Shown: one piece after another, positions 925-38,966 of the stretch | Numbering within the stretch: the stretch's first letter is position 1 | Layout: the number at the start of each line of letters is the position of its first letter | From: Rhodoferax sp. | GTDB taxonomy: Bacteria > Pseudomonadota > Gammaproteobacteria > Burkholderiales > Burkholderiaceae_C | Assembly (NCBI RefSeq): GCF_023701345.1 | Contig: NZ_JAMPXE010000004.1 | Location: 1-47,489 of the forward strand | Length of the DNA: 47,489 nucleotides | Reading direction: 5' to 3' | Notes under the pieces: generated by a model | Database searches by the model: none | What the model was told of the DNA's origin: nothing | What the model saw: only the letters and a program-made list of their open reading frames with translations | Made by a program: the position numbers and the translations under genes

Positions 925-1890
925 TCAGGCCTGAGACAATACACGCAGGGGGGAACCATCCGCCGCCAGCGTCTCTCCCTTGCGCTCGGTGATCAGGCCG
1001 TAGGCGTGCGGCTGGCGGTGCAGGTCGAAGTCGAAGGTGGTGCGCTTGTACACGGAACAAAAGTCCAGGTCGCAACGGGCAATGGCCATCTCGTCGCCCT
1101 TGGTCAGGCAGCGCGCCACCACTTCGCCGGACGGGGCCACGATGCAACTGCCGCCGATGCTGTCCACGCCCTCTTCCATCCCGGCCTTGGCCACGCCCAC
1201 CACCCAGGTGCCGTTCTGATAAGCACCGGCCTGCATGGACAACTGGTTATGGAACAGCGACAGGTCGTCATGCGCCGGCGCGGGTGCGTTGTGCACCGGG
1301 GTGTTGTAGCCGATCAGCACCATCTCGACACCTTGCAGGCCCATCACGCGGTAAGTCTCGGCCCAGCGCCGGTCGTTGCATAGGGCCATGCCCATCACCC
1401 CGCCAAAAGCCTGCGTCACACCCCAGCCGGAGCCGGGGGTGAAGTAGCGTTTCTCCAGATGCTGGAAGCGCCGCCAGGGTTCATGCTCCCGGTGGCCGGG
1501 CAGGTGCACCTTGCGGTATTTGGCCACGATCTGGCCGCTGCGGTCCACCATGATGGAGGTGTTGTAGCGCACCTCGGCACCGGCCTCTTGCGCCAGTTCG
1601 GCGTAGCCCAGGTAAAAGCCCACGCCCAGCTTGCGCCCCAGGTCGAACAGCGGCTGTGTGGCGGTGTTGGGCATGGAGCGCTCAAAAAAACTGTTGACCT
1701 CGGCCTCGTCCTCGATGTACCAGCGCGGGAAGAAGGTAGTCAGCGCCAGTTCGGGAAAGACAATGAGCTGCGCGCCCACGGCGTGGGCCTGGTGCATGAG
1801 GTCGCACAGGCGCGCCACCACCTGGGTGCGGGAGTCTGCGCGTTGGATGGGGCCGAGTTGGCCGAGGGCGACGTTGAGGTAGCGTGGCAT
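925..1890 (-). CDS. Nitrilase-superfamily N-carbamoyl-D-amino acid hydrolase-like amidohydrolase
   Basis: This 321-residue cytosolic carbon-nitrogen hydrolase has the nitrilase catalytic triad where N-carbamoyl-D-amino acid amidohydrolase (DCase) has it: Glu47 (FPELAL), Lys127 (YRKVHLPG) and Cys171 (MALCNDRRW). The HREHEPWRRFQHLEKRYFTP stretch is typical of DCases. Such enzymes split N-carbamoyl amino acids into amino acid, CO2 and ammonia. It is the last gene of the minus-strand set RpiR-DpaL-M20-nitrilase, 31 bp after the M20 gene, so it probably removes a carbamoyl group from a precursor of 2,3-diaminopropionate. Family assignment is strong; substrate and stereochemistry are inferred. Confidence 0.87.
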   Translation of the reverse strand: MPRYLNVALGQLGPIQRADSRTQVVARLCDLMHQAHAVGAQLIVFPELALTTFFPRWYIEDEAEVNSFFERSMPNTATQPLFDLGRKLGVGFYLGYAELAQEAGAEVRYNTSIMVDRSGQIVAKYRKVHLPGHREHEPWRRFQHLEKRYFTPGSGWGVTQAFGGVMGMALCNDRRWAETYRVMGLQGVEMVLIGYNTPVHNAPAPAHDDLSLFHNQLSMQAGAYQNGTWVVGVAKAGMEEGVDSIGGSCIVAPSGEVVARCLTKGDEMAIARCDLDFCSVYKRTTFDFDLHRQPHAYGLITERKGETLAADGSPLRVLSQA

Positions 1891-1921
1891 AGAAGTGAAA
1901 ATTAGAAGTTAAGGGTAAAAG

Positions 1922-3157
1922 TCAGGAAGGGCGGTTGGCCAGCGCCAGCACCACTTGCAGCAGCACCTGCGCGCCGCGCAGCAGGTCGGCAGGTTCGGTG
2001 TGTTCGCGCACGTTGTGGCTGAGGCCGCCAACGCTGGGCACAAAGATCATGGCGCTGGGGCAGACACGGGCCAGCATTTGCGCGTCGTGCCCGGCGCCGC
2101 TGGGCATGCGCTGGTGGCTGCAGCCCAGGGCCTGCGCGTGTTGCTCCACCAGGTTCACCACCTTGGGGTCAAAGGCGACCGGCTCAAAGCGGGCCAGTGC
2201 GCGGGAACTGATGCGCACGCCCTCGGCCTGCGCTGCTTGCTGCGCATAGGCGTGCAGATCACTTTCGGCCTGCACCAGTGCGGCGCTGTCGGTGTTGCGC
2301 AGATCCACGGTGAACACGGCTTTTTGAGCGATGACGTTAACCAGATTCGGGCTGAGCCGCACGGCACCCACAGTGGCCAGTTGCCGTCCGCCCATGCGCT
2401 TGCTGAGGTCGCGCACAAACACCGCAACCTGGGCGGCCACCAGTGCAGCGTCGTGGCGCAGGGCCATGGGCGTGGTACCGGCGTGATTGGACTGGCCTTC
2501 CACGGTGAACTCGGTCCACGAGATGCCTTGCACGCCTTCGACCACGCCAATCTGCAAGTCCATTTGCTCCAGCACCGGGCCCTGTTCGATGTGCAGTTCC
2601 ACATAGCTGTCCACCACCGGCGCGCCCACGGCAGCGGTGCCCCGGTAGCCGATGCGCTCCAGTTCGGCCTGCACCGATGCGCCATCCACATCACAGGTGG
2701 CCAGTGCATCCTGCAGCGGCAGGCCGCCCACATAGACCAGGCTGCCCATCATGTCGGGCTGGAAACGCGCGCCTTCTTCGTTGGTGAACACGGCCACGGC
2801 CAAGGGGCGGCGGGTCTTGAGTCCGGCCTCGCGCAACGTGGCCACCACTTCCAAGCCGGCCAGCACGCCGTAATTGCCGTCGTACAGGCCGCCGGTGCGC
2901 ACGGTGTCGATGTGCGAGCCCATCATCACCGGGGGCAGGTCTTCGGTGCCGGGGAAGGTGCCGATGATGTTGCCAATGGCATCCACTTCCACGTGCATAC
3001 CCAGTTCGCGCATGCGTGCCACCGTCCAGTCGCGGCCTTGGGCGTCGGCATCGGTCAGGGCCAGGCGGTTGACGCCACCACCGGGCAGCGCGCCGATCCG
3101 GCCCAACGCCTGCAGGCTGGCCAGCAGGCGCTGGCCGTTGATTTGCGGGGCGCTCAT
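1922..3157 (-). CDS. M20-family Zn amidohydrolase (allantoate/N-carbamoyl-L-amino acid hydrolase type)
   Basis: This 411-residue protein carries the di-metal M20 site: His82 in GSHIDTV, Asp93 in YDGNYG, Glu127-Glu128 in TNEEGARF, His189 in ELHIEQGP and His381 in GGLSHN. The dimerisation-domain motif NHAGTTP at 224-230 is present. This is the pattern of the allantoate amidohydrolase / beta-ureidopropionase / L-N-carbamoylase group, which releases CO2 and ammonia from ureido acids. Its ATG overlaps the stop of the diaminopropionate lyase gene by 4 bp (ATGA), which implies translational coupling and a shared pathway. In E. coli the relative YgeY also sits beside DpaL (YgeX). Exact substrate unknown. 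Confidence 0.88.
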   Translation of the reverse strand: MSAPQINGQRLLASLQALGRIGALPGGGVNRLALTDADAQGRDWTVARMRELGMHVEVDAIGNIIGTFPGTEDLPPVMMGSHIDTVRTGGLYDGNYGVLAGLEVVATLREAGLKTRRPLAVAVFTNEEGARFQPDMMGSLVYVGGLPLQDALATCDVDGASVQAELERIGYRGTAAVGAPVVDSYVELHIEQGPVLEQMDLQIGVVEGVQGISWTEFTVEGQSNHAGTTPMALRHDAALVAAQVAVFVRDLSKRMGGRQLATVGAVRLSPNLVNVIAQKAVFTVDLRNTDSAALVQAESDLHAYAQQAAQAEGVRISSRALARFEPVAFDPKVVNLVEQHAQALGCSHQRMPSGAGHDAQMLARVCPSAMIFVPSVGGLSHNVREHTEPADLLRGAQVLLQVVLALANRPS

Positions 3158-4386
3158 GCCGGCGCTCCATCCTGTAGCACCTGGGCGGCGCTGCGGCCCA
3201 CCAGTTGCTGGTACAGCGCGGGGTCGGTATCGCCCTCGCTACCGAACAGCAGCGCGCGGCTGTCCGGGCCCAGACCTAACGATGCACGTGCGGTGCTGTC
3301 TTGCGCGATGAGCAGGGCCGCCGCCAGGCCCGCCACGGCGGACTCGCCCGCCACAATGACCGGATCACCACCCTGCGGGCTGGCCAGCAGGCGCATGGCA
3401 TCGACAGCAGCCGCATCGGGGATGGTGCAAAAGGCGTTGGCGCCGGTGGCAAGAACGTCCCAGGCCAGTAGCGACACCTCACCGCACGCCAGGCCGGCCA
3501 TTAGCGTGTCCAGATCACCCTTGACCGCCACCACCGCACCGGCGCGCGCACTTTGCAGCAGGCAGTCGGCGCGCTCGGGCTCCACCACCACAAACACCGG
3601 GCGCTGCTCGGCATTACGTTCCCAGAAATAAGCGCACACCGCCGCCGCAAAGCCGCCCACCCCGGCTTGCACAAACACATGCGTGGGCCACTGCGGCAGG
3701 GCGCTGACGGCCTCATGCACCATGAGCTGGTAGCCCTGCATCACGTCGCGCGGAATGTCCATGTAGCCGGGGTAAGAGGTGTCGGAGATCACAAACCAGC
3801 CATTGGCGTTTGCATCGCGGTCGGCCTGCTGCACCGCGTCGTCGTAATTGCCGTCGGTGCGCACCACCTGCGCGCCGTAGCGGGCAATGGCTTCCTTGCG
3901 CCCCTCGCTGACGCTGGCATGGATGTAGATGACGCAGCGGCAGCCCAGCATCTGCGCGCCCCAGGCCACCGAGCGGCCATGGTTGCCGTCGGTGGCGCAG
4001 GTGACCGTGATGTCGGCACAGGCCTGGCGCAGTGCGGGATCGTTCTGCAGGTCGGTGTGACTCACGTTGCGGTCCAGGCGCTGCCCCAGTTCGCGGCACA
4101 GCAGGCGCGCCACGGCATAGGCGCCGCCCAGCGCCTTGAAGCTGCCCAGGCCGAAACGCGAGCCTTCGTCCTTGTAGTGGATGCTGGCCACGCCTGCAGC
4201 GCGGGCCAGCCCGGGCAAGGCACACAAGGGCGTCACGGCATAACCGGGCCAGGAGGTAATGACGGCCCGGGCCTGCGCCAGCGCGGCATCACTGAGCAGG
4301 GTGCCGCGGTGCACGCCGTAGGGCTCGGCGGCCTGGAAGCGGAGATTGGTCAGCAGCGTGAACGGGTATTGGGGTAAATGTTTCAT
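3154..4386 (-). CDS. dpaL: 2,3-diaminopropionate ammonia-lyase
   Basis: PLP-dependent fold-type II lyase, 410 residues from the ATG at 4386. DpaL converts 2,3-diaminopropionate (both enantiomers, in the E. coli enzyme) to pyruvate and two ammonia. Visible motifs match the family: Lys84 in GLGSFKALGGAYA (Schiff-base lysine), TDGNHGRSVAWGAQ, VQAGVGG, LMAGLACGE and the C-terminal SEGDTDPALY phosphate-binding region. An in-frame ATG at 4434 would add 16 residues and overlap the regulator gene by 35 bp. I prefer 4386, 13 bp after that gene's stop, because the protein then starts like its relatives. It is coupled to the downstream M20 hydrolase. Confidence 0.88.
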   Translation of the reverse strand: MKHLPQYPFTLLTNLRFQAAEPYGVHRGTLLSDAALAQARAVITSWPGYAVTPLCALPGLARAAGVASIHYKDEGSRFGLGSFKALGGAYAVARLLCRELGQRLDRNVSHTDLQNDPALRQACADITVTCATDGNHGRSVAWGAQMLGCRCVIYIHASVSEGRKEAIARYGAQVVRTDGNYDDAVQQADRDANANGWFVISDTSYPGYMDIPRDVMQGYQLMVHEAVSALPQWPTHVFVQAGVGGFAAAVCAYFWERNAEQRPVFVVVEPERADCLLQSARAGAVVAVKGDLDTLMAGLACGEVSLLAWDVLATGANAFCTIPDAAAVDAMRLLASPQGGDPVIVAGESAVAGLAAALLIAQDSTARASLGLGPDSRALLFGSEGDTDPALYQQLVGRSAAQVLQDGAPA

Positions 4387-4399
4387 GGGAGTGCCTGGT

Positions 4400-5263
4400 T
4401 CAAGGAGAAGATTCAAGGTCGGCCAGTTGGGCATGGACCTGCTCGATGGCAGCCATGCGGGCGCGGGCTTTTTTGGGTAGATGGGCCAATGTGGCGGTGG
4501 CCAGGTAGTTGATGAGGCTGATGGCGCTCACGTAGGAGTCAAAAATCGGCTCGTCCTGCGGCGGGCAGATGAACAGGGCCTGGGCCCGCGCCGCCAGCGC
4601 CGACACACGGGCGTCGCTCAGCAGCACCAGCTCGGCACCAGCATCGCAGGCAATACCCACCACTTGGGACAGGCGGCGGGTGCGACGGCGAAAGTCCATC
4701 GCCAGCAGCACGTCATGCGGCTTGATTTCAGCCAGCAGCTCGGCATCTTCACCCGCACCTTCGTTCAGCAAGTGGACCTCGGCCCGCACCTGGGACAGCA
4801 AGGCCCGCGCATAAGACGCGGCCATGTAACCATTGCGATAGCCCACCACCCAGACACGCCGCGCACCTGCCAGCAGCCTGGCCGCCTGCTGCACGCCCTG
4901 GTCGGTCACGCTGTCGGCCAGCGCCTGCAACTGCTGCGCGTCTTGCGCAATATGCTGTTGCAGCGGACTGCCACGCGTGCCCTGCTGCGCCATGCGGTAC
5001 AACGGCGAGGGCGCGGGCACGCCCTTGCGCTGGTGCTGGCGAAAGGCCTGAAAGTCGGCAAACCCGACCCGCTTGAAAAAGCGTGCCGTGCTGGCCTTGG
5101 AGACACCGGCCAGCGCTGCCAGCTCGGTGGCGCTGTAGGCCAGCAGGTCTTGTTCATGAGCCAGCACCACGTCGGCCAACTTGCGGTCAGCCAGCGACAG
5201 GGCCTCGTATTGGGCCTGAATGCGCTCGCGCAGGGAGATGGTCGTGGTCATGGTCATGGTCAT
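4400..5263 (-). CDS. RpiR-family transcriptional regulator (HTH + SIS domain)
   Basis: The protein has an N-terminal RpiR-type HTH (LADVVLAHEQDLLAYSATEL, then AGVSKASTARFFKRVGF) followed by a SIS sugar-isomerase-fold effector domain (about residues 115-260, with RRVWVVGYRNGYMAA). It is probably the local regulator of the catabolic genes it precedes and of the divergent transporter. The start is uncertain: ATG 5314 is the longest choice, and a run of ATGs at 5263, 5257 and 5251 comes from a GTCATG tandem repeat. I chose 5263 because the family begins near MTTTISLRERIQ; no start has a good ribosome-binding site. Paired GAAAC palindromes lie just upstream. Confidence 0.83.
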   Translation of the reverse strand: MTMTMTTTISLRERIQAQYEALSLADRKLADVVLAHEQDLLAYSATELAALAGVSKASTARFFKRVGFADFQAFRQHQRKGVPAPSPLYRMAQQGTRGSPLQQHIAQDAQQLQALADSVTDQGVQQAARLLAGARRVWVVGYRNGYMAASYARALLSQVRAEVHLLNEGAGEDAELLAEIKPHDVLLAMDFRRRTRRLSQVVGIACDAGAELVLLSDARVSALAARAQALFICPPQDEPIFDSYVSAISLINYLATATLAHLPKKARARMAAIEQVHAQLADLESSP

Positions 5264-5324
5264 GGCAGGGTGGCTGACAGGTTTTGGTGCCGGCATCCCC
5301 AAAACAGGGCACATGCACCATTGA

Positions 5325-5338
5325 GAAACATATGTTTC
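5325..5338. promoter_or_regulatory. Candidate RpiR operator 1
   Basis: GAAACATATGTTTC is a perfect 14-bp palindrome in the divergent region between the RpiR regulator and the ABC transporter. RpiR-family operators are often of the GAAA-N-TTTC type. It lies 147 bp before the transporter binding-protein start and 62 bp before the preferred regulator start. Confidence 0.55.
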
Positions 5339-5354
5339 ATATATTTAATGCGAA

Positions 5355-5368
5355 GAAACGAATATTTC
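5355..5368. promoter_or_regulatory. Candidate RpiR operator 2
   Basis: GAAACGAATATTTC has the same outer GAAA and TTTC arms as the palindrome at 5325 and is placed exactly 30 bp downstream, about three helical turns. Two sites on the same DNA face would suit cooperative binding by a dimeric or tetrameric SIS-domain regulator. Confidence 0.5.
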
Positions 5369-5471
5369 ATATTGTCCACCATCTGCTTGCAAGGGCAATG
5401 CCAGGCGGAATAGGTGGCACACATCTTGCGCAAGGTTTGGCGTGTCCCATTCTTTTTTACAGGAACCCTCC

Positions 5472-6269
5472 ATGAAATTCAAATCGCTCTCCACCCTGGC
5501 TGGTTTGCTTGCCAGCGCCGTTTTGACCCTGGCAACGCCGGCCCACGCGGCGGATGAATCACTTTCCGCCGTGCTGGCCAAGAAGTCGATTGCCCTGGGC
5601 GTGGCCTCCGACTTTCCGCCCTATGGCTACATGGGCCCCGATTTCAAACTCACCGGCGTGGATGTGGCCACGGCGCAGTTGATCGCCGACAAGCTGGGCG
5701 TGAAAGCCGAACTGGTGCCGGTGAGCACGCCCAACCGCATTCCCTACCTGCAGACCAAGAAGATTGACCTGATCGTCTCGGCGCTGGGCAAGAACCCCGA
5801 GCGCGAAAAGGTGATTGACTTCACCGTGGCCTACGCACCGTTCTTCCAGGCCGTGTTCGGTCCCAAGGCACTCAATATCAAGAGCTTTGACGACCTGGCG
5901 GGCAAGAGCATTGCCGTGACCCGCGGCACCATTCAGGACGATGTGCTGCAAAAGGTGGCCCCGCCGACGCTGAAGATCCAGCGCTTTGAAGACGACTCCA
6001 CCACCGTGGCCGCCTTCATCTCGCAACAGACCCAACTGCTGGCCACCGGCGCTGCCGTGGCGGCAGCTGCCGTGCAAAAGAACCCCCAGGTGCAGGCCGA
6101 ATACAAGCTGCTGCTGAAAGACTCACCCAACTTCATCGGCGTACGCAAGGGTGAAACCGCGCTGCTGACCAGGGTAAACGAGATTCTGCGCGCCGCCAAG
6201 GCCGACGGCACGCTGGAGCAGTACGCGCAAAAATGGCTGGGCCGCGGCACCGGCGTGCTGCCGGACTAA
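5472..6269 (+). CDS. Polar amino acid ABC transporter, periplasmic substrate-binding protein
   Basis: This 265-residue SBP_bac_3 family protein starts at ATG 5472, preceded by ACAGGAACC. An upstream in-frame ATG at 5442 would place non-signal sequence before the signal peptide, so I rejected it. Residues 1-26 form a signal peptide ending in TPAHA-AD. The mature domain has ASDFPPYGYM, a GVDVATAQLIADKLG lobe and the GNxxER-like ALGKNPEREKVIDFT motif typical of cationic or polar amino acid binders. It is the first gene of the binding protein-permease-permease-ATPase operon. It is divergent from the diaminopropionate cluster, so a ureido amino acid is the likely ligand (inference). Confidence 0.88.
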   Translation: MKFKSLSTLAGLLASAVLTLATPAHAADESLSAVLAKKSIALGVASDFPPYGYMGPDFKLTGVDVATAQLIADKLGVKAELVPVSTPNRIPYLQTKKIDLIVSALGKNPEREKVIDFTVAYAPFFQAVFGPKALNIKSFDDLAGKSIAVTRGTIQDDVLQKVAPPTLKIQRFEDDSTTVAAFISQQTQLLATGAAVAAAAVQKNPQVQAEYKLLLKDSPNFIGVRKGETALLTRVNEILRAAKADGTLEQYAQKWLGRGTGVLPD

Positions 6270-6320
6270 GCACGCATCCCCTTCCTCACCCCATCGCTCG
6301 TACCGCCCACCTGAATTGCC

Positions 6321-6983
6321 ATGATTGAATTTGACTTTGCCGTGGTGCTGGCCCAGTGGCCCATGCTTTTGCGTGGGCTGGGCCTGACGGTGGCGCTCAC
6401 TGTTGTTTCGGCCGTGCTGGGGGCCTTGTTGGGTACCGCGTGTGCCTGGGCGCGGCTGCATGGCAGCCCGATCTTGAAACATGTGGTGGGCGGTTATGTG
6501 GAACTGATGCGCAACACACCCTTCATCATCCAACTGTTCTTCATTTTCTTTGGCCTGCCGTCGCTGGGTCTGCGCTTGTCGGTGGAGGTGGCGAGCGTAC
6601 TGGCCATGGTGTTTAACCTGGGGGCCTATGCCTGTGAGATCGTACGCGCCGGCTTGCAATCCACACCCAGGGGCCAGCTCGAAGCGGCCATGAGCCTGGC
6701 GCTGACACCGTGGCAAATTTTCTCGCGCGTGGTGCTGCCACCGGCACTGGCACGCATCTGGCCGGCGCTCGTGAGCCAGATCATCATCGTCATGCTGGGC
6801 TCGGCGGTCTGTGGCCAGATCTCGGCGGAAGAATTGTCACAGGCGGCCAATTTGATTTCGAGCCGCACCTTCCGCAGTTTTGAGTCCTACATCATCGTGA
6901 CCGTCATCTACCTGCTGTTGGCGATTGCGCTGCGGCAGTTGTTGTACTGGGTCGGACCGCGCTTCATTTTTGTCAGCCGCTAA
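6321..6983 (+). CDS. Amino acid ABC transporter permease (HisM/GlnP type)
   Basis: Inner-membrane permease of 220 residues with about five hydrophobic segments. It carries the polar amino acid transporter signature MRNTPFIIQLFFIFFGLP and the EAA loop EIVRAGLQSTPRGQLEAAMSL that contacts the ATPase. It lies 51 bp after the binding-protein gene and 11 bp before the second permease, so all four genes should form one operon. The two permeases are expected to form a heterodimer. Confidence 0.9.
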   Translation: MIEFDFAVVLAQWPMLLRGLGLTVALTVVSAVLGALLGTACAWARLHGSPILKHVVGGYVELMRNTPFIIQLFFIFFGLPSLGLRLSVEVASVLAMVFNLGAYACEIVRAGLQSTPRGQLEAAMSLALTPWQIFSRVVLPPALARIWPALVSQIIIVMLGSAVCGQISAEELSQAANLISSRTFRSFESYIIVTVIYLLLAIALRQLLYWVGPRFIFVSR

Positions 6984-6994
6984 CGGGCACCGCC

Positions 6995-7639
6995 ATGGTT
7001 CAATTTTCACTCTGGGACATTTTCACCTTCTTGCTGGGCGCCCTGCGCTGGACGGCGGCACTGTCACTGATTGCTTTCATCGGCGGTGGCCTGGTGGGCA
7101 TGGGCCTGCTCATGCTGCGTTTTACCAAGCTGCGCGGCGCGGCCACGGCGGTGGCCTGGTACGTGCAGATCTTTCAGGGCACACCGCTGCTGATGCAGCT
7201 CTTTCTGGTGTACTTCGGCCTGGCGCTGCTGGGCATGGACACCTCACCGCTGGTGTCGGCCGCCATCTGCCTCACGCTCTATGCCAGCGCCTACCTGACC
7301 GAAATCTGGCGCGGCTGTGTGAACGCCATCCCCAAAGGCCAGTGGGAAGCCTCAACCAGCCTGGCAATGAACTTCACACAACAGATGCGTCATGTGATCC
7401 TGCCCCAGGCCTTGCGCTTGGGCGTTGCGCCCACGGTGGGTTTTCTGGTGCAGATCATCAAGGGCACGGCGCTGGCCTCGGTCATTGGTTTTGTCGAATT
7501 GACCAAAGCCGGGCAAATGATCTCCAACGCCACCTACCAACCGTTTCTGGCCTATACCTTCGTTGGCCTTTTGTACTTTGTGCTGTGCTACCCGCTGTCG
7601 TGGTGGAGCCAGCGACTTGAAAACCGCCGTCTGGCCTGA
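6995..7639 (+). CDS. Amino acid ABC transporter permease (second subunit)
   Basis: This 214-residue inner-membrane protein is paralogous to the preceding permease. It has the family signature FQGTPLLMQLFLVYFGLALL and the EAA loop EIWRGCVNAIPKGQWEASTSL, with five predicted membrane spans. It pairs with the permease at 6321 and is followed 3 bp later by the ATPase gene. Confidence 0.9.
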   Translation: MVQFSLWDIFTFLLGALRWTAALSLIAFIGGGLVGMGLLMLRFTKLRGAATAVAWYVQIFQGTPLLMQLFLVYFGLALLGMDTSPLVSAAICLTLYASAYLTEIWRGCVNAIPKGQWEASTSLAMNFTQQMRHVILPQALRLGVAPTVGFLVQIIKGTALASVIGFVELTKAGQMISNATYQPFLAYTFVGLLYFVLCYPLSWWSQRLENRRLA

Positions 7640-7642
7640 TTT

Positions 7643-8401
7643 ATGACCCCATCCTCTACCCCCCCGTTTGCGCTGGTTGACATTCGCGGCCTGCACAAGA
7701 GTTTTGGCCCCACCGAAGTGCTCAAGGGCATAGACCTGCAGGTCGGACGCAAGGAAGTGGTTTGCATCATCGGCAAAAGCGGCTCGGGCAAGAGCACGCT
7801 GCTGCGCTGCATCAACGGGCTGGAAACCTTTGAGCGCGGCAGTCTGGCCGTGGACGGCCAGGCCCTGCAACACACCGATGCCAATGCCATGCGCGAGTTG
7901 CGCCAGCAAGTGGGCATGATTTTTCAAAGTTTCAACCTGTTTCCGCACCTGAGTGCAGGGCGCAACGTGATGCTGGCCCCGACCCTGGTCAAGGATTTGC
8001 CCAAGGAAGACGCCCGTGCACGCGCCCAGGCACTGCTGGACCGCGTGGGATTGGGCAGCCTGTTTGACCGCATGCCCGAACAGCTATCGGGCGGGCAGCA
8101 GCAGCGTGTGGCCATTGCCCGCGCGCTGGCCATGGCACCGACCGTGCTGTTGTGCGATGAGATCACCTCGGCCCTGGACCCGGAACTGGTGGGTGAAGTA
8201 TTGCAGGTGGTGGAGATGCTGGCCAATGAGGGCATGACGCTGATTCTGGTCACGCATGAGATGGCCTTTGCCCGCAAGGTGAGTGACCGCGTGGTCTTCA
8301 TGCACCAGGGTCTGATCCACGAAGCGGGTACGCCCGATGAAATATTCAACCGTCCCCAAACGCCTGAACTGCAGCAGTTCCTGTCGGCTTTGCGCGAGTG
8401 A
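7643..8401 (+). CDS. Amino acid ABC transporter ATP-binding protein
   Basis: This 252-residue ABC ATPase of the GlnQ/HisP group has all expected motifs: Walker A GKSGSGKST, Q-loop FQSFNLFPHLSAGRNV, signature LSGGQQQRV, Walker B VLLCDEITSALDPE and switch His in LVTHEMAFA. It energises the transporter at 5472-7639. It is the last gene of the operon, and a strong bidirectional terminator follows at 8439. Confidence 0.92.
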   Translation: MTPSSTPPFALVDIRGLHKSFGPTEVLKGIDLQVGRKEVVCIIGKSGSGKSTLLRCINGLETFERGSLAVDGQALQHTDANAMRELRQQVGMIFQSFNLFPHLSAGRNVMLAPTLVKDLPKEDARARAQALLDRVGLGSLFDRMPEQLSGGQQQRVAIARALAMAPTVLLCDEITSALDPELVGEVLQVVEMLANEGMTLILVTHEMAFARKVSDRVVFMHQGLIHEAGTPDEIFNRPQTPELQQFLSALRE

Positions 8402-11760: not shown

Positions 11761-12297
11761 TCAGGGCGGCGACAGCAGTCGCGCCGCCGCCTGCAGTGCA
11801 GCGACGGTGTCAATGTCGGTGACGCAGCCTATGTCGTCAATGGGCAGCTCGAACGCGCCATAAGCCGCCACCACCGAGGCGGCACCGGCAGCGCCGTGCA
11901 AGGCCTGCAGCGCCGGACCGCAGACGCCGGCAAAACCGACCGGATGGCCGCGCTGCCCCCGGTACACCGGAACCACCACAGGATGCTGACGCAAAGCCTC
12001 TGCCACCGCGCGCAGGGTGTCACTTTGAACCAGCGGCAAATCGCCCGGCAGGATCAGCCAGCCCGCGGCGGCACCGGTGGCGCGCACCGCGGCGGCGATC
12101 GAGTCGCCCACGCCGGGCTGACCGCTGTGCTCCAGATGACAGGCCAGGCCACTGGCCTGCACCGCAGCCAGCGTGTGCTGCAGCACCGTCCTGCTACCCA
12201 AGGGCGCCTGCAGTTTGTTGCCCTGACCGCCCGAGGCGGTAAAGCGGGTGCCGCGCCCGGACGCCAGCACCAGCACCAGCACGGTGGGTGCATTCAC
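11761..12297 (-). CDS. MocA/MobA-like nucleotidyltransferase (molybdenum cofactor cytidylyltransferase-like)
   Basis: A protein of about 178 residues of the NTP_transf_3 family. It opens with the nucleotide-binding loop LVLASGRGTRF, followed by NKLQAPLG (the KLL-like lysine), the metal-binding ILPGDLPLV and RGHPVGF motifs, and an IDDIGCVTDIDT C-terminal end. Such enzymes add CMP or GMP to molybdopterin for hydroxylases such as xanthine dehydrogenase. I chose the GTG at 12297 because it overlaps the stop of the XdhC gene by 4 bp (GTGA); an ATG at 12333 is possible but overlaps by 40 bp. The XdhC neighbour supports a role in molybdenum hydroxylase maturation. No hydroxylase genes are in the window. 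Confidence 0.82.
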   Translation of the reverse strand: MNAPTVLVLVLASGRGTRFTASGGQGNKLQAPLGSRTVLQHTLAAVQASGLACHLEHSGQPGVGDSIAAAVRATGAAAGWLILPGDLPLVQSDTLRAVAEALRQHPVVVPVYRGQRGHPVGFAGVCGPALQALHGAAGAASVVAAYGAFELPIDDIGCVTDIDTVAALQAAARLLSPP

Positions 12298-13304
12298 GAC
12301 AATACGCCCGTTGTTGCAGAGGCAAGCGGCCACGTCAACGCATGTTTGACCTGCACCAGCTCGGCCACGATGCTCACAGCGATCTCGGCCGGCGTCCTGC
12401 CGCCCAGCGCCAGACCCACCGGCCCATGCAGCCGCGCCAGTTCCGGCCCCGTCAAGTCAAAGTGCTGGGCCAGGCGCTGCTTGCGCGTGGCCTGGTTGCG
12501 CCTGGAGCCCAGCGCCCCGACATAAAAAGCGCCGGACCTGAGCGCCTCCATCAAGGCCATGTCATCGAGTTTGGGGTCGTGCGTCAGGGCCACGATGGCG
12601 GTGTGGGCATCGGGCTGCAGCTCGCGCACCACATCGTCGGGCATGCCTTCGAGTCGCCGGATGCCCGGCATGCTGGACACGAATGTCGCGGCATATTCTT
12701 CCCGTGGATCGCAGACCAGCACCTCGAAGTCGAGCATGGCGGCCATTTGCGCGACCGCCTGCGACAACTGGCCTGCGCCAATCAGCAACAGGCGCCAGCT
12801 GGGGCCAAACACCGTGCTCAGGGTGCTGCCGTCAAACTGCATCGCCTGCCCGCGCTCGGCGCCTGAGAGCACCACGGCGCCGGTCGCCAGCGTCAGCGTG
12901 CGCATCACCAGATGGTGCTCAGCGGTGTGCGCCAGCAGCTGCGTCACCCAGCCGGTGTCGAGCAAAGGCTCCTGCACCAGACGCAGGGTACCGCCGCAGG
13001 GCAGGCCAAAACGGGCGGCCTCTTCCTGGCTGACACCATAGGCGATCATGGCGGGTTTATCCAGGGCAGTCGCAGCCCCACCGGCCGCTTTGAAGCTGGC
13101 CCTGGTGCGGGCGATCAGATCGTCTTCGACGCAGCCGCCCGACACCGAGCCGCTTACCACGCCATCGTCGCGCACCGCCAGCAGCGCGCCCGGCGGCCGC
13201 GGCGCACTGCCCCAGGTTTGAACCACGGTGAACAGCATGACCGCGTGACCACTGCGGCGCCAAGCCAGGGCGTCAGACAACACGCGGAGATCAGGACTTT
13301 CCAA
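12294..13304 (-). CDS. XdhC/CoxI-family molybdenum hydroxylase maturation protein
   Basis: A 336-residue cytosolic protein with the XdhC_CoxI N-terminal domain (TWGSAPRPPGALLAV and SGSVSGGCVEDDL) and a C-terminal Rossmann domain (LLIGAGQLSQAVAQMAAML, then VCDPREEY). XdhC proteins bind molybdopterin cofactor, promote its sulfuration and deliver it to xanthine dehydrogenase-type enzymes. Its stop overlaps the start of the MocA-like gene, so the two are co-translated. Family call is firm; the client enzyme is not visible. Confidence 0.9.
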   Translation of the reverse strand: MESPDLRVLSDALAWRRSGHAVMLFTVVQTWGSAPRPPGALLAVRDDGVVSGSVSGGCVEDDLIARTRASFKAAGGAATALDKPAMIAYGVSQEEAARFGLPCGGTLRLVQEPLLDTGWVTQLLAHTAEHHLVMRTLTLATGAVVLSGAERGQAMQFDGSTLSTVFGPSWRLLLIGAGQLSQAVAQMAAMLDFEVLVCDPREEYAATFVSSMPGIRRLEGMPDDVVRELQPDAHTAIVALTHDPKLDDMALMEALRSGAFYVGALGSRRNQATRKQRLAQHFDLTGPELARLHGPVGLALGGRTPAEIAVSIVAELVQVKHALTWPLASATTGVLS

Positions 13305-14622: not shown

Positions 14623-16008
14623 TTAACCCAAGAAACATTCGTCCTGCTGGCGCCGCAGCGCAAGTAATGAGGAGCCAGGGTCAATCTCGATGTCGTCGAA
14701 CGTGATCAGTGCGCCCGCTGCGACGTTGCGCACGAGTTGCCGACTGGCAGCAAGGTAAAACGGCACCGGATTGCCGCTGCCAAGCGGTTGGGCCGGATGC
14801 AGTTCGCCTACCGTTCCCTCCATGGTGTGATGGTGGCCGCCCATGGCCATGACGGTCCCGGCCGACAGGTTCTGCGTCGCACGGGCGACAAGATCCAAGC
14901 GCGGGAACGGTGCCTGCGCACCGCTCGAACGACCGTGAATAGCCGCATCGAGCACGCTGGTCGCCGCCTCAAGCCCGAGCAGGTGACGCGGCAAATAAAC
15001 CATCGCGCGCGCGCCGTCGCGGGAAACGACATGGCCTTTGGCGGCCAGCAGATCCCAGGTCACGCGATCCTCGCAGCGGACAATAACGAACACACCGCCG
15101 GCAAAGCTCGCTTCGTCGGGTCGGCGCAGGCAGTGGAAAACGTCCAGCACCCGCCCGCCAGTCAAGAGCCCGCCCTCTGCCGTCGCCCCCAGGAAGCTCG
15201 GCACTTCGGAAACACGCGCGATCGGTGCATGCAAATCGGGGTGATCCGGCATGAATCCGGTGGCATTGGCGACGACGAGCAGTTCGCACAGATCCGGTAC
15301 GCAACGTTGCGGCAACTCTGCACAGGCCTGCGCCCGCGCCTGGGCAACTTCTATTGCCGGGCGCGTACCCAAGGCCCAGTGCGGCGCAAAACCGGGAATC
15401 GAGACCGTCTTGCCATTGCTTGTCATGCTGCCCGTGGCCTGGTCATAGACAAAATCGTATTCACTGGATTTGCCGGCCGCAATGATGTCGAAGCCCAGCA
15501 GTTGCGCCCAGGTGATCAGTCCGATCAGCAGGCTCGGCTGGTCCCCGTCGACGGGGGTGACCACCTTGCCGTGCTGCCGGGCGAGGTGTGCGAGATAGGG
15601 ACCGACGACACTGTCCACCTCCTTCGAGACCAGGACGAGGTGGTGCCCGGCTTCGATGGCGAGGCGGCCGTGCCGCGCGCCCGCCTCGGGGTTTCCTGTC
15701 GCTTCGACAACCACATCAATCGGCAAACCGACCACTGTGGCAAGATCATCGGCCGCAACGTACTTGCCCTGGTCCCAGGCCCGACGTGCTTCTTCCGCAG
15801 TAAAGCAAAGCGCAACGTCAGCAGCCGGCACACCCAGCGCAGCAAATGCCGCTGCGGCGATCTTGGCATCAAGATCTACCGCAATGCGGGCCCGCATCAA
15901 CGGGACGCGCATGCCTTGTGCCAGAAAGCTGCGGCCAAAGCCCCCGCTGCCCAACACACAGGTTTCAACCGGCCGTTGTGCGCTGGCGTAGTAATCCAGA
16001 TGGTTCAT
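14623..16008 (-). CDS. DRL/homoserine-dehydrogenase-like oxidoreductase with C-terminal SAF domain
   Basis: A 461-residue protein with an N-terminal NAD(P)-binding Rossmann domain (VLGSGGFGRSF at about 18-28, then VVEATGNPEAGARHG and a VSKEVD segment like homoserine dehydrogenase) and a C-terminal SAF domain (NVAAGALITFDDIEID). From memory it matches the group COG4091, which includes the Brucella DXP-reductoisomerase-like enzyme DRL. It is often mislabelled as a flagellar FlgA protein because of the SAF domain. It lies beside a GntR regulator, PdxA2 and a tricarboxylate transporter, so it probably acts on an acid-sugar intermediate. Reaction unknown. Confidence 0.75.
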   Translation of the reverse strand: MNHLDYYASAQRPVETCVLGSGGFGRSFLAQGMRVPLMRARIAVDLDAKIAAAAFAALGVPAADVALCFTAEEARRAWDQGKYVAADDLATVVGLPIDVVVEATGNPEAGARHGRLAIEAGHHLVLVSKEVDSVVGPYLAHLARQHGKVVTPVDGDQPSLLIGLITWAQLLGFDIIAAGKSSEYDFVYDQATGSMTSNGKTVSIPGFAPHWALGTRPAIEVAQARAQACAELPQRCVPDLCELLVVANATGFMPDHPDLHAPIARVSEVPSFLGATAEGGLLTGGRVLDVFHCLRRPDEASFAGGVFVIVRCEDRVTWDLLAAKGHVVSRDGARAMVYLPRHLLGLEAATSVLDAAIHGRSSGAQAPFPRLDLVARATQNLSAGTVMAMGGHHHTMEGTVGELHPAQPLGSGNPVPFYLAASRQLVRNVAAGALITFDDIEIDPGSSLLALRRQQDECFLG

Positions 16009-16093
16009 GTCGTTTCCAGTACCAAGTTAGTGTTCGTGGCGACTCAATACGTAAATTACCTGGTCACCAGCGAGGTCGTCGCGGAAGCAGTTT

Positions 16094-16807
16094 TTAGATT
16101 GCGGTCTTGATGCGGTCCCAGGTTCGCGCGAGGTGATTAGCCATCGCTGACGACAAACGTGGGCCGTCACGCGCCTCGAGCGCGCCGATCATGTCCTCAT
16201 GGTCCGCCACCGCAGCCGCCCACTGATCTTCGGTCCTGTGACCCAGGTAGCGAATTTGCTTCATGCGCGACTGCAGCATGTCGTGCACCATGGCCAGCGA
16301 TTCATTGCCCGAAAGCGAGATCAGCGCCGAGTGAATTTGCTGGTTGCGCTTGAAATACGGCAGTCGATCACGTGCCGCGTAAAACTGCAACATCTCGTCA
16401 TGCAGTCGCCGAACCTCCTGGATATCAGTATCAGAGGCATTCTGGCAAGTCAATGATCCGGCCAGTTCTTCCAGAGTAGCAAGCACATCAAGCATGTCCC
16501 TGACTTCTTTGGCGGTCAGTTTGCGCACCGTCGCGCCACGGTTGGGAATCAACTCAACCAGACCTTCGTTGGCCAGCACCTTCAGCGCTTCGCGCAGTGG
16601 CGTGCGCGAGACGCCGAGTTGTTCACCAACCCGGCCTTCGTGGATACGCACGCCCGTAGGCAATTGCCCCTCAATGATCATGTCACGCAGGCGCGACACC
16701 ACCACGTTATGCAAAGTCGGGCGCTCGATGCGCACCACTTCGGACGCGGGATGGGGGACAAGGTCCGTGTCGCCCAACGTATTCGGCTCAAGATTCATCG
16801 CCATCAA
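16094..16807 (-). CDS. GntR/FadR-type transcriptional regulator (FCD domain)
   Basis: A 237-residue regulator with an N-terminal winged HTH (VVSRLRDMIIEGQLPTGVRI, LGVSRTPLREALKVLANEGL) and a C-terminal helical FCD ligand-binding domain (about residues 100-235, with LHDEMLQFYAARDR). FCD regulators usually respond to small organic acids. It is divergent from pdxA2 and separated by 124 bp that hold a palindrome and a promoter. The DRL-like gene lies 85 bp downstream on the same strand. It most likely represses the DRL and PdxA2-TctCBA genes. Confidence 0.88.
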   Translation of the reverse strand: MMAMNLEPNTLGDTDLVPHPASEVVRIERPTLHNVVVSRLRDMIIEGQLPTGVRIHEGRVGEQLGVSRTPLREALKVLANEGLVELIPNRGATVRKLTAKEVRDMLDVLATLEELAGSLTCQNASDTDIQEVRRLHDEMLQFYAARDRLPYFKRNQQIHSALISLSGNESLAMVHDMLQSRMKQIRYLGHRTEDQWAAAVADHEDMIGALEARDGPRLSSAMANHLARTWDRIKTAI

Positions 16808-16850
16808 TCCCTCTCATTCAAGCAAAACTATATATTTGAATTTTGCATTC

Positions 16851-16865
16851 AGTATGCAGAATACT
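16851..16865. promoter_or_regulatory. Candidate GntR operator
   Basis: AGTATGCAGAATACT has perfect AGTAT / ATACT arms around a 5-bp centre, in the divergent gap between the GntR gene and pdxA2. Its right half AGAATACT recurs at 16883-16890, overlapping the pdxA2 promoter spacer. A repressor bound here would block transcription. Confidence 0.5.
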
Positions 16866-16876
16866 ACATTTAATTG

Positions 16877-16906
16877 TTGACAAGAATACTTCTTCGGTAG
16901 CATCAT
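16877..16906 (+). promoter_or_regulatory. Candidate sigma-70 promoter for pdxA2-tctCBA
   Basis: A consensus -35 TTGACA (16877-16882) is followed after 18 bp by CATCAT (16901-16906, 4 of 6 bases of the -10 consensus). A GAGGAG ribosome-binding site precedes the pdxA2 ATG at 16932. The -10 is weak, so the element is tentative. Confidence 0.4.
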
Positions 16907-16931
16907 CAAAAAAATTACAGAGGAGACTGAA

Positions 16932-17957
16932 ATGTCGGCCAATCCATTTGCCGCTAGCGCCACACGTCCCACCATTGCCCTCGCCATGGGCGATCCTGCG
17001 GGGGTGGGCGCGGAATTGACCGCCAAACTGCTGTGCCTAGACGAAATTCGGGCGGCAGCCAATATCGTCGTTTTCGGCGACCGGCGCATCCTTGAGGAAG
17101 GCGCGAAGATTGCCGGCGTGGCGCTTGACATCAGCTACGTGGCGCCCGATTCTGAATTTGGCGCAACAAACGGCCCGGTCTTTGTCGACCTGGGGCATCT
17201 TTCCCCGCTGGATGTCAAGCGCGGTGAAGCCACTGCCGTGGGCGGCGCCTTTGCGCTCAAGAATTTCCGGCGCGCGCTCACCATGGCGCACGACGGCAAG
17301 GCTGACGCGGTTTGTTTTACGCCGTTCAACAAGAAAGCCATGCGCTATGTCTATCCCGGCTATGACGACGAAATACGTTTCATCTCCGAGGTGATCGGGT
17401 TTTCGGGCCACGCGCGCGAGTTCAACATTCTGGAGAATCTGTGGAATGCACGGGTCACCTCCCACATCCCGCTCTCCGAAGTCGCCTCGGCAATCACTGC
17501 CGAGGGCATCCTCAGCGAGTTGGCACTGACCGACCGCACCCTGCGCAACGCGGGTTTTGACAATCCGCGCATTGCGATCGCGGCGCTCAATCCGCATGCT
17601 GGCGATGGTGGCAATTTCGGCAAGGAAGAAATTAACGTGATCGAGCCGGCCGTGCAAAAAGGTATTGAGCGCGGCTTCAATGTCTCCGGACCGTACCCGG
17701 CGGACACGGTATTTGTTCGTGCCAAAAATGGTGCTTTTGACGCGGTGCTGACCATGTACCACGATCAAGGACAAATCGCCATGAAGCTGATGGGCTTTGA
17801 TCGCGGCGTGACCTTGATGGGCGGCCTGCCGTTCCCGGTCTGCACACCGGCGCATGGCACCGCGTACGACATCGCCGGGCGCGGCATCGCCAATATCGGC
17901 GCAAGCCGCGAGGCAGTTCTCCTGGCCGCGCGCATGGCCCTGAAAAAGGCAGGCTGA
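16932..17957 (+). CDS. pdxA2: PdxA2-type 4-phospho hydroxy-acid dehydrogenase
   Basis: A 341-residue member of the PdxA family (4-hydroxythreonine-4-phosphate dehydrogenase). All three metal-binding histidines are present: His178 (VTSHIPLSEV), His222 (NPHAGDGGNFG) and His277 (TMYHDQGQIAMK), with MGDPAGVG near the N-terminus. The TPFNKKAM motif and the genomic context point to PdxA2 rather than vitamin B6 synthesis. PdxA2 proteins oxidise and decarboxylate phosphorylated C4 acid sugars such as D-threonate 4-phosphate. The terephthalate-pathway dehydrogenase TphB is also a PdxA homologue, an alternative role. It heads a plus-strand operon with tctC-tctB-tctA; no DUF1537 kinase is nearby. Confidence 0.85.
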   Translation: MSANPFAASATRPTIALAMGDPAGVGAELTAKLLCLDEIRAAANIVVFGDRRILEEGAKIAGVALDISYVAPDSEFGATNGPVFVDLGHLSPLDVKRGEATAVGGAFALKNFRRALTMAHDGKADAVCFTPFNKKAMRYVYPGYDDEIRFISEVIGFSGHAREFNILENLWNARVTSHIPLSEVASAITAEGILSELALTDRTLRNAGFDNPRIAIAALNPHAGDGGNFGKEEINVIEPAVQKGIERGFNVSGPYPADTVFVRAKNGAFDAVLTMYHDQGQIAMKLMGFDRGVTLMGGLPFPVCTPAHGTAYDIAGRGIANIGASREAVLLAARMALKKAG

Positions 17958-18039
17958 CACGGCTGGGTCAATCAGCAACAAATTAGTGTTTAAAAGAGTT
18001 TTCTCCACCGTTCCTCAACACCACAGAAAGGCTTACACC

Positions 18040-19029
18040 ATGTTAAATACCAAGTTAATCACCACGCTGCTGGCAAGTGCTATGTATGCAACAGCTGCCA
18101 GCGCGGCCTGGGTACCGGAAAAACCAGTTGAGTTTGTCGTCGCTTCCGGGGCTGGTGGCGGAACCGACATTTTTGCCCGAACGATCCAGTCGATCATCGT
18201 CAAGTACAAGCTGATGAACGCGCCGATTGTTGTCGTCAACAAAGGCGGTGGTGCCGGCAGCGAGGGCTTTGTTTATGGGTCGGCCAGCGCCGATGATCCG
18301 TACAAGCTGACCTTCGGCACCAACAACGAGTACCTGCTGCCGCTCGTTGCCAAGATGGGGTACACGGCCGACAGCCTGGTCCCGGTCACGGCACTGGCAC
18401 TCGACGAGTTCCTGATCTGGGTCAACGCCGAGTCGCCCTACAAAGACGTCAAGAGTTTTATCGATGCGGCCAAGAAGCCCGAGGGGCTGAAAATGGGCGG
18501 CTCACAGTCCAAAGACACCGACCAGACGTTGGCCAGCATGATCAGTGAAGCGACCGGCGCCAAGTTCACCTACATCCCGTTCAAGAGCGGCGGCGAAGCG
18601 GCAGTTCAACTGGCAGGCGGGCACATTGACGCCAACCTCAACAACCCGAATGAAAACATCGGCCAGTGGAAAGCCGGCATGATCCGACCGCTCTGCGTTT
18701 TCAGTTCGCAACGCATGGCCGCCGGCCCCAAGGTCACCAAGGACATGGCCTGGTCCGACATTCCGCTGTGCAAAGACTCGGGCGTGCCGATCGCCAACTA
18801 TCAGATGCCGCGCACCGTCTGGCTGGCGGCCAAGGTGTCGCCCGATGTGATGTCCTACTACACGACGATGCTCAAAAAAGTGAGCGAAACGCCTGAGTGG
18901 AAAACGTACATCGAGCGCACCTCGCAAAGCGATCGCTTCATGACCGGCGACGAATTGCGCGCCTACACCAAGCAGGACGCCGAAAAAGCGACCGAAGTCT
19001 TCAAACGCGAGAAGTGGATCGTTCAATAA
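18040..19029 (+). CDS. tctC: Tripartite tricarboxylate transporter substrate-binding protein (TctC/Bug family)
   Basis: A 330-residue periplasmic protein starting at ATG 18040 behind AGAAAGG; an upstream in-frame ATG at 17986 would precede the signal peptide. Residues 1-21 form a Sec signal ending in AASA-AW. The Bug-family pattern is clear: PVEFVVASGAGGGTDIFART, VVNKGGGAGSEGF, a KMGGSQSKDTDQ segment and FKSGGEAAVQLAGGHID. These proteins capture carboxylates for a TctAB permease, and the permease genes follow directly. The ligand is probably the hydroxy acid handled by PdxA2 and the DRL-like enzyme. Confidence 0.87.
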   Translation: MLNTKLITTLLASAMYATAASAAWVPEKPVEFVVASGAGGGTDIFARTIQSIIVKYKLMNAPIVVVNKGGGAGSEGFVYGSASADDPYKLTFGTNNEYLLPLVAKMGYTADSLVPVTALALDEFLIWVNAESPYKDVKSFIDAAKKPEGLKMGGSQSKDTDQTLASMISEATGAKFTYIPFKSGGEAAVQLAGGHIDANLNNPNENIGQWKAGMIRPLCVFSSQRMAAGPKVTKDMAWSDIPLCKDSGVPIANYQMPRTVWLAAKVSPDVMSYYTTMLKKVSETPEWKTYIERTSQSDRFMTGDELRAYTKQDAEKATEVFKREKWIVQ

Positions 19030-19106
19030 AGCCGTGACCGGCGTCCCGGTGCTGTTCGGGGCAGGCCATGCCTGCCCCGTTGTTTAATGATTGTGGAGTG
19101 TGTCGT

Positions 19107-19607
19107 ATGCGTAACCCATCCGGGACCTTGATGACTCGTTTGACGCTGGAAATTGCGGTGGCCTGTACTGCTGCCCTGGCCGGTGCCATCGTTAGCTACG
19201 GATCGCTCGAAATCGGAACCGGCTGGGGCGATGCCGGACCACAACCGGGCTACTTCCCCTTTTATATCGGCCTGCTCATTGTCCTCGCCAGTTGCGCTGT
19301 GCTGATTGAGGTCGTGATCGAGCAACGTCGCCGCAAGCAAGTTTTTCTGACACGGGAGCAAGGCCATCGGATATTGACTTTTTTTCTGCCCATGCTCGGT
19401 TTCGTCGCGGTGTCGATGGTGCTTGGACTTTATGTCGGCCTGGCCCTCTATCTGTTCGGTGTCATGACGATCCAGGGGGGTTACCGGATCGGCAAGGCGC
19501 TCGCCGTGTGTCTGAGCACGATTGTGATTTTTTACGTGGTTTTTGAAAAATGGTTTCAGGTTCCCCTGCTCAAAGGGCCGATTGAAGCCCTGCTGAACAT
19601 TCACTGA
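19107..19607 (+). CDS. tctB: Tripartite tricarboxylate transporter small membrane subunit TctB
   Basis: About 166 residues with four hydrophobic segments typical of TctB. The typical GPQPGYFPFYIGLLIVLAS motif follows the first helix. I placed the start at ATG 19107, 11 bases after a GGAG; the ATG at 19068 would add 13 unlikely residues. It lies between tctC and tctA and forms the small inner-membrane partner of TctA. Confidence 0.85.
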   Translation: MRNPSGTLMTRLTLEIAVACTAALAGAIVSYGSLEIGTGWGDAGPQPGYFPFYIGLLIVLASCAVLIEVVIEQRRRKQVFLTREQGHRILTFFLPMLGFVAVSMVLGLYVGLALYLFGVMTIQGGYRIGKALAVCLSTIVIFYVVFEKWFQVPLLKGPIEALLNIH

Positions 19608-19660
19608 ACCTGGCTCGACAAAAACGATTTTTCACGACAGCGAAATTCAGGAGAAACACA

Positions 19661-21160: not shown

Positions 21161-21278
21161 AATTCCGGAAATCTTTCACGGACGTTAAGCAGCAGGTGGT
21201 CCAAGAAGCCCGTGGTGATTCAATCCGGTTCATTTTGGGAAGCTGGTTGGTTAACAGAACAAAGAATCGTGATGACTT

Positions 21279-22553: not shown

Positions 22554-23011
22554 GGAAGTACCTACGTTGTGGCGCTTTCGCGCTGTTGATGTGAGTGATC
22601 TGTACGCCGATTGACCTCGTGGCAAGTGTATGAATGCCGATTGAACATCGCTAGTGGGTTGACGGATGCTGTTTAGAAATCTGTCCAAGATTGAACTGGC
22701 CTTGCTTCAATTTCAAGAGGTGTGCGAGTTCGGAAAATGAAGCGGAACCCTTGAAGGCTGATGTGCTGATTTCCACCCGAAGGGGCGTACTTTTTGATGC
22801 GAATGCACAAAAATTGGATGAGACGCATCAACAATAATTACCAAGGGTTAACCCAGGATAGATCTTGGTTAATATATTTACCACCCACCGCACAAGCAGT
22901 TTGGTGGTCCCACAATTTGCACCATCAAGGTCGGTGCAATTGAAGCGGGTGGTCATGCAATTAGGGTGATGCCCAAATGTTTCTTAACTCACCAACCAAA
23001 TAGAGAAAAAA
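22554..23011. promoter_or_regulatory. Divergent regulatory region with several palindromes
   Basis: This 458-base gap separates the HisD-like gene from the XRE-cupin gene and holds no supported ORF. GGGTTAACCC (22845-22854) is a perfect palindrome. GGTTAATATATTTACC (22867-22882) is palindromic at 14 of 16 bases, and the two are centred 25 bp apart. TTGCACC and GGTGCAA (22917-22939) form a 7-bp stem with a 9-base loop. These are candidate operators for the XRE-cupin protein. Confidence 0.4.
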
Positions 23012-26060: not shown

Positions 26061-26067
26061 GGCAGTA

Positions 26068-26706: not shown

Positions 26707-26721
26707 GGAAGCGATGCAAGC

Positions 26722-26732
26722 AAGTAGCTTGG
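26722..26732. promoter_or_regulatory. Candidate XRE-cupin operator (internal)
   Basis: CAAGTAGCTTG has CAAG / CTTG arms around three bases, 16 bp upstream of the regulator's ATG at 26706. The same CAAG-N3-CTTG core occurs in the palindrome at 31883 in front of the operon. Confidence 0.5.
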
Positions 26733-26774
26733 TGATTTTGTTAAAAGTACAGTGGAAAGTGTCTCACGAGCCAC

Positions 26775-27470: not shown

Positions 27471-27508
27471 GAAGAGCTCCTTGTTTGCAGTGTGATGAAA
27501 ATGGGGGG

Positions 27509-29625: not shown

Positions 29626-29626
29626 C

Positions 29627-30945: not shown

Positions 30946-30982
30946 GGCGGCTCCAATTTGCCTGGTGCTGGGTTGTCAGCCC

Positions 30983-32608: not shown

Positions 32609-32897
32609 AGCTGATAACCCGAGCCGCATCAGCAGGTTTCAGATCCAGCGCGTCCGAGTGAACTGGAATGAAAACACCTCGTGCATGGACCTATCTATGC
32701 CTGGTGGCCACTCTATCCAGATGACCGCAGACCTTTTGCCGACCTTCGGGTTTCGAGCAAGAAAGGTATGGCTCCACCTTCCTGCCATACGAAGCTGGTT
32801 GTTTCCAAATTGCTGACATTGGACTCTGTTGGTAAGTTTGTCCGTTATAGGCTGGATAATGAGATCAGCATCCATAACAACCATAGCAAGGCAACAC

Positions 32898-38964: not shown

Positions 38965-38966
38965 CC

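Follow-up and report, generated by a model that had tools for sequence, protein, structure and literature searches.

In the reductive uric-acid pathway, as set out in the excerpted text of PMC12507026, uric acid undergoes reduction and ring opening to give 2,3-diureidopropionate (DUPA), the 2- and 3-ureido groups are removed stepwise to yield 2,3-diaminopropionate, and YgeX converts the latter to pyruvate. The same text describes the degradation of albizziin to pyruvate by YgeY together with YgeX of E. coli, and an equal action of YgeX on the L- and D-isomers. The order of ureido removal and its stereochemistry were named as open in an excerpt of a 2025 report (PMC12990295), an R centre having been proposed before, and the natural function of hydantoinases has been called unclear (PMC3546935, in part). 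Here we analysed a 47,489-nucleotide stretch of Rhodoferax sp. DNA (contig NZ_JAMPXE010000004.1, assembly GCF_023701345.1, positions 1-47,489, forward strand; hereafter the window), which carries a 2,3-diaminopropionate ammonia-lyase (DpaL) gene followed by genes for an M20 and a nitrilase-type hydrolase (together, the triad), an RpiR-family regulator gene and a divergent ATP-binding cassette (ABC) importer. The explanation that we favour as a whole, with moderate confidence, is that this cluster would be an importer-fed form of the final steps of the reductive uric-acid pathway.

The divergent importer would bring in a linear alpha-N-carbamoyl acid, most likely DUPA. The nitrilase would take off the 2-ureido (D) group, an assignment made because D-carbamoylases act on alpha-N-carbamoyl-D-acids, and the M20 hydrolase the 3-ureido group, because family TIGR01879 includes beta-ureido hydrolases. 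Each cleavage would release CO2 and ammonia, the two together yielding (D-)2,3-diaminopropionate, which DpaL would cleave to pyruvate and ammonia, while RpiR would govern both arms through paired GAAA-N6-TTTC sites, sensing a pathway compound. From these sequences we infer the substrate, the stereochemistry and the inducer, together with the split of nitrilase and M20 hydrolase over the 2- and 3-ureido groups. That the cluster serves the catabolism of ureido-diaminopropionates in general is probable; for DUPA as the imported compound itself, the case is about evenly balanced.

The preliminary description of this DNA had stated that no pathway of this make-up was described, which does not hold for the trunk, as the route from DUPA through diaminopropionate to pyruvate is in print (PMC12507026 and PMC12990295, both in excerpt). 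A literature search that left subscription papers and supplements outside its scope found no report of a TIGR01879 hydrolase and a D-carbamoylase replacing YgeY and YgeW/UacY, and the words "nitrilase" and "carbamoylase" occur zero times in the main text of PMC12507026. What appears to be novel is the make-up, in which two different ureido hydrolases are combined with a dedicated importer whose pocket is opine-like. The features of the cluster are as follows:

925-1890, minus strand: nitrilase-superfamily homologue of N-carbamoyl-D-amino-acid hydrolases, with E47/K127/C171 and R174/R175 in 53/53 triads; candidate 2-ureido remover
1922-3157, minus strand: M20 hydantoinase/carbamoylase-family amidase (TIGR01879), metal-site motifs kept; candidate 3-ureido remover
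3154-4434, minus strand: 2,3-diaminopropionate ammonia-lyase (DpaL), probable start near 4386
4400-5314, minus strand: RpiR-family regulator (HTH_6 and SIS domains)
5325-5338, no strand assigned: operator-like palindrome GAAA-N6-TTTC, site 1
5355-5368, no strand assigned: operator-like palindrome GAAA-N6-TTTC, site 2
5472-6269, plus strand: family-3 periplasmic binding protein, carboxylate-binding Arg kept, Asp161 and Ser72 (HisJ/LAO numbering) both replaced by Gly
6321-6983, plus strand: amino-acid ABC permease 1
6995-7639, plus strand: amino-acid ABC permease 2
7643-8401, plus strand: amino-acid ABC ATPase

All eight genes are open frames where the preliminary description had placed them, with the nitrilase, M20, DpaL and RpiR genes on the minus strand divergent from the family-3 importer genes on the plus strand, and the 4-bp dpaL-M20 overlap that it had reported corresponds to bases 3154-3157, common to both frames. 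The DpaL frame as called (to 4434) also overlaps the RpiR frame (from 4400); because many homologues align only from residues 9-17, the true DpaL start is probably Met17, at about 4386.

DpaL passed the family model NF006058 (543 bits, cut-off 276), failed the YgeX-type equivalog TIGR03528 (371 bits, cut-off 532) and aligned to the solved E. coli YgeX across residues 46-414. The M20 protein passed TIGR01879 (427 bits, cut-off 204) and NF006769, left only a trace against the YgeY model NF009555 (20 bits, cut-off 321) and is not YgeY-like; a tblastn search of the window with ygeY gave no match at E<=1e-6. Among its solved relatives are N-carbamoyl-L-amino-acid hydrolases, beta-alanine synthase and allantoate amidohydrolase, none of which stands out as the single clear parent. 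In the PDB, N-carbamoyl-D-amino-acid hydrolases took all of the top eleven places for the nitrilase (E 2e-119 to 6e-113); an N-carbamoylputrescine amidase came next (E 4.5e-14), an identity that was rejected (TIGR03381, 99.6 bits against 410). Family models and structural matches therefore agree with the two carbamoyl-type hydrolases originally proposed; their predicted reaction type is ureido hydrolysis, and the sequences do not name the substrate. The key residues, which we take to be catalytic (the E-K-C residues and the carboxylate-side Arg pair of the nitrilase, and the metal-site motifs of the M20 protein), are intact in the window, as had been claimed, and invariant in all 53 complete triads, window included. 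Profile models assigned the ABC parts to the family-3 amino-acid type.

Scanning genome contigs with the window DpaL as query recovered 80 DpaL loci, which are hence the nearer relatives of this protein. The open reading frame (ORF) caller was crude, with some genes missed or misplaced, so linkage counts rest on tblastn; they cover the 68 loci in which DpaL is followed by at least 2300 bp, the other 12 of the 80 offering too little room. Both hydrolase genes follow DpaL on the same strand in 54 of the 68 loci, and for this reason the triad arrangement is not by chance. A single locus has the M20 gene only (L057), three have the nitrilase gene only (L050, L054 and L055), and ten have neither just after DpaL (L033, L038, L039, L046, L052, L075, L079, L080, L082 and L083). 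L050 and L055, both from Rhodovulum, have DpaL and nitrilase genes without a neighbouring M20 gene and adjoin a TRAP-type binding protein (for L050, tested as DctP), an arrangement that is possibly a one-ureido version of the pathway. Of the triad loci, 53 have 1500 bp of sequence before DpaL, and in 46 of these an RpiR homologue lies no more than 1.5 kb from it; the pairwise distances of the three triad proteins correlate among the 53 complete triads (r 0.90-0.93). In the wider family, DpaL was over cut-off in 46 of 399 genomes. The triad nitrilase was the sole match at E<=1e-30 in 16 of 22 triad genomes examined, a total that counts as two G245 and G410, which show identical coordinates and are probably one assembly. 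In L062 and L064 the nitrilase, and in L067 the hydantoinase, was recovered as two tblastn pieces. The nitrilase tree gives no evidence that the triad enzymes make up an exclusive clade, because three second copies (L235-L237) are placed among them and the label of L234 is doubtful, this nominally non-triad copy adjoining an M20 homologue.

The link to uric acid comes from eight relatives (L056, L059, L060, L061, L062, L064, L071 and L073), hosted by six Pleomorphomonas (L073 among them) and two soil bins, in which YgfK-like, selenium-dependent xanthine dehydrogenase (XDH) and SsnA-like genes come after the triad on the same strand; the contigs of L062 and L056 stop inside the YgfK-like and the SsnA-like gene, respectively. 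The XDH of L056 passed TIGR03311 (883 bits, cut-off 830). The YgfK-like protein of L056 (401 bits, cut-off 835) and the SsnA-like protein of L059 (241 bits, cut-off 455) matched the right models below cut-off, and the YgfK-like protein matched both ends of E. coli YgfK, without its middle part. In the sequence around seven of these loci (all but L062), none of ygeY, ygeW, yqeA and hyuA had a match at E<=1e-6, UacY not having been searched for, and the same four E. coli genes were not found in about 20 kb further on each side of L059 and L060. Likewise, YgeW was over cut-off in none of eight genomes tested, four Pleomorphomonas and the window genome included.

These clusters bear on the best-surviving alternative, an unlikely one, in which racemic N2-carbamoyl-2,3-diaminopropionate would be imported, the nitrilase cutting the D-form and the M20 enzyme the L-form at the same position, with DpaL using both. 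Such a scheme fits with E. coli YgeX accepting both isomers (PMC12507026, in excerpt), with the presence of D- and L-carbamoylases among the two hydrolase families, with a binding pocket that suits any alpha-N-carbamoyl acid and with the Rhodovulum loci that keep the nitrilase without a neighbouring M20 gene. However, urate-type clusters must lose two ureido groups and only these two carbamoyl-type hydrolases were seen there, which argues for DUPA over a mono-ureido substrate. We also know of no natural racemic source of N2-carbamoyl-2,3-diaminopropionate, which counts further against this scheme.

DUPA as the imported compound is also compatible with the pocket of the binding protein. From 38 hits, four shorter than about 180 residues were dropped; in the 34 remaining triad-linked relatives and in the window protein, the carboxylate-binding Arg77 is kept and positions 72 and 161 are both Gly. 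All six E. coli reference binding proteins have Asp161, and 21 of 27 other family-3 proteins taken from four genomes as a control have Asp or Glu at this position, none of the 27 combining Gly72 with a non-acidic residue 161. In LAO, Ser72 and Asp161 bind the ligand amine (PMC5740067, in part), and in NocT the replacement of these residues (Gly, Ser) goes with the binding of alpha-N-substituted opines, not arginine (PMC4192606, in part). Because both residues of this alpha-amine lock are lost, as in NocT, an alpha-N-substituted ligand is favoured and albizziine disfavoured; the pocket argues for a ligand that has a carboxylate and carries a substituent on its alpha-nitrogen, for which DUPA and N2-carbamoyl-diaminopropionate are better candidates than albizziine. 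The preliminary description had named albizziine as a possible import, and its uptake, or that of another plant free alpha-amino acid with a 3-ureido group, now seems improbable. The importer is indeed of an amino-acid family, and YgeY with YgeX degrades albizziin to pyruvate (PMC12507026, in excerpt), but the lock is replaced by Gly, Gly in 34 of 34 binding proteins, and a mono-ureido substrate would idle one of the two conserved hydrolases, leaving the D-carbamoylase-type enzyme without a substrate.

In nine further loci the triad is accompanied by a D-hydantoinase homologue (L063, L066, L067, L070, L072, L074, L076, L077 and L078); those of L063 and L066 passed TIGR02033 (533-539 bits, cut-off 393) and the other seven were called by 57-64% identity to the L063 protein. 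The substrate class of the preliminary description, a ureido derivative of 2,3-diaminopropionate, is thus retained as the best reading, with the relatives' triad sitting in both urate-type and hydantoinase clusters. A hydantoinase was over cut-off in 15 of 20 triad genomes searched, and there was no match at E<=1e-60 in the other five (Comamonas aquatica, C. kerstersii, C. granuli, Malikia granosa and M. spinosa); in another, overlapping genome set, four of seven triad carriers had none over cut-off. Because some triad genomes show no hydantoinase, the window-type module can act on a linear compound. The window genome has two hydantoinases outside the cluster, which were rejected as pathway members, their flanks (read as ORFs only) being without triad homologues. 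General scavenging of hydantoins and N-carbamoyl amino acids through a promiscuous importer, with DpaL as one outlet of several, has as little to commend it as albizziine uptake: carbamoylases of these families are often promiscuous and hydantoinases accompany the triad in most of the genomes searched, the window genome among them, yet DpaL is fixed to the hydrolase pair across alpha- and betaproteobacteria, with correlated divergence, and five triad genomes are without a hydantoinase match.

The importer-fed uric-acid reading also accommodates the regulation. The gap between the divergent arms (5315-5471) holds GAAACATATGTTTC at 5325 and GAAACGAATATTTC at 5355, from which the motif GAAA-N6-TTTC was derived. 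All 34 divergent RpiR-importer gaps of window-type relatives contain it, with 48 sites against 0.115 expected from mononucleotide shuffles. Of 19 alphaproteobacterial RpiR-DpaL gaps, 16 have it (16 sites, 0.035 expected), those of all eight urate-type loci included, and it is missing in L052, L063 and L070. The tandem pair was found at one place in the window genome, at one in genome G121 and at none in three other triad genomes. One regulator family and one operator would thus seem to serve window-type and urate-type clusters, which suits a shared pathway signal.

In the DpaL tree, the urate-type loci form one group (support 100/99), sister to most hydantoinase-type loci (100/98), with window-type loci within a separate betaproteobacterial group of weaker support (94/65); the urate label needs one change and the hydantoinase label three.

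Several observations weigh against the explanation that we favour. As the urate-type loci are one DpaL clade, the urate link is perhaps a single event. Loci with one or no hydrolase show that DpaL works elsewhere too. By itself, a non-acidic residue at 161 is no rarity, as 6 of the 27 controls have one, and restoring the Asp in OccJ left octopine binding unchanged (PMC5740067, in part). In the window genome, whose assembly is 90.6% complete, SsnA was not over cut-off (best 140 bits), nor was YgfK, with no match to its first 410 positions, nor selenium-dependent XDH, the XdhD model TIGR03313 not having been searched genome-wide; these cut-offs are imperfect, the YgfK- and SsnA-like proteins of urate-type loci scoring below them too. 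On our reading, the compound must therefore come from outside. RpiR operators of like shape may also be common, in which case clusters could have the motif in common and still respond to different inducers.

A more specific version of the importer-fed reading is that a dedicated importer and two-hydrolase DUPA module is fed by urate-reducing neighbours, and that the triad, with a D-carbamoylase for YgeW/UacY, completes an unreported alphaproteobacterial reductive urate pathway. This remains a tentative proposal, to which we give somewhat less than an even chance. If true, D-carbamoylases would gain a natural role, a D (R) centre in the ureido intermediates would be indicated, the pathway would extend to bacteria without YgeY or YgeW, and a late urate intermediate would be open to scavenging by bacteria without the early steps. 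A D-carbamoylase-type enzyme conserved in urate-type clusters would also make the order and stereochemistry of cleavage, and the natural function of hydantoinases, directly testable.

Elsewhere in the window, the MocA- and XdhC-like genes at 11761-13304 were considered as members of the system, since the E. coli cluster has mocA and yqeB, and were rejected because the neighbourhood is not conserved, tblastn with the window proteins across the loci giving no MocA match and only three XdhC matches (48% identity). The region 14623-22688 is perhaps a sugar-acid catabolic cluster, encoding a PdxA-like protein and a HisD-family dehydrogenase together with what is likely a tripartite tricarboxylate transporter set. 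A second nitrogen-catabolism cluster (25122-31837, minus strand) encodes an agmatinase-like protein, a cupin-type regulator, a DUF1989 protein, a second M20 protein, over TIGR01879 and below the cut-offs of sister models, and a family-3 ABC importer with a binding protein in which Ser replaces Asp161; the substrate of this cluster may be a guanidino or ureido compound. A defence island (32829-44408, plus strand) carries two adjacent type I methyltransferases, specificity and restriction subunits, and a PtuA/PDC-M01A-like ATPase with a PDC-M01B-like partner, the two consecutive hsdM-like genes being unusual. At its edge, a long frame (45276-47036, plus strand) reads like a putative IS66-type transposase, a call made from reading alone.

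Among known systems, the reductive uric-acid cluster of E. coli and C. difficile (XdhD, YgfK/UacX, SsnA, HyuA, YgeW/UacY, YgeY and YgeX) resembles ours in having DpaL/YgeX as the last enzyme with an M20-superfamily hydrolase beside it, in the two ureido removals proposed and the conversion of diaminopropionate to pyruvate, and through the Pleomorphomonas-type relatives, in which YgfK-, selenium-XDH- and SsnA-like genes adjoin the triad. It differs in that the window M20 protein is of TIGR01879 and not YgeY, in that a D-carbamoylase-type nitrilase stands at the place of YgeW/UacY, and in that the window cluster has its own ABC importer and RpiR regulator and no upstream ring-opening set detected. 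Hydantoin-utilisation (hyu) clusters, with D-hydantoinase and D-carbamoylase, share the nitrilase family, and nine relatives pair a D-hydantoinase with the triad; here, however, the nitrilase is joined to DpaL and a TIGR01879 hydrolase, and the window-type cluster is without a hydantoinase, as are some such genomes altogether. The reductive pyrimidine (Pyd) pathway has a dihydropyrimidinase and, after it, an M20 beta-ureidopropionase homologue (ORFs read in L135) and has no DpaL, the Pyd-type M20 protein of G121 being about 45% identical to that of the window. Finally, the opine importers NocT and OccJ are likewise of family 3, with the carboxylate Arg kept and the alpha-amine lock lost, whereas they are unlike our system at other pocket positions and in gene context, the cluster described here having no opine enzymes.

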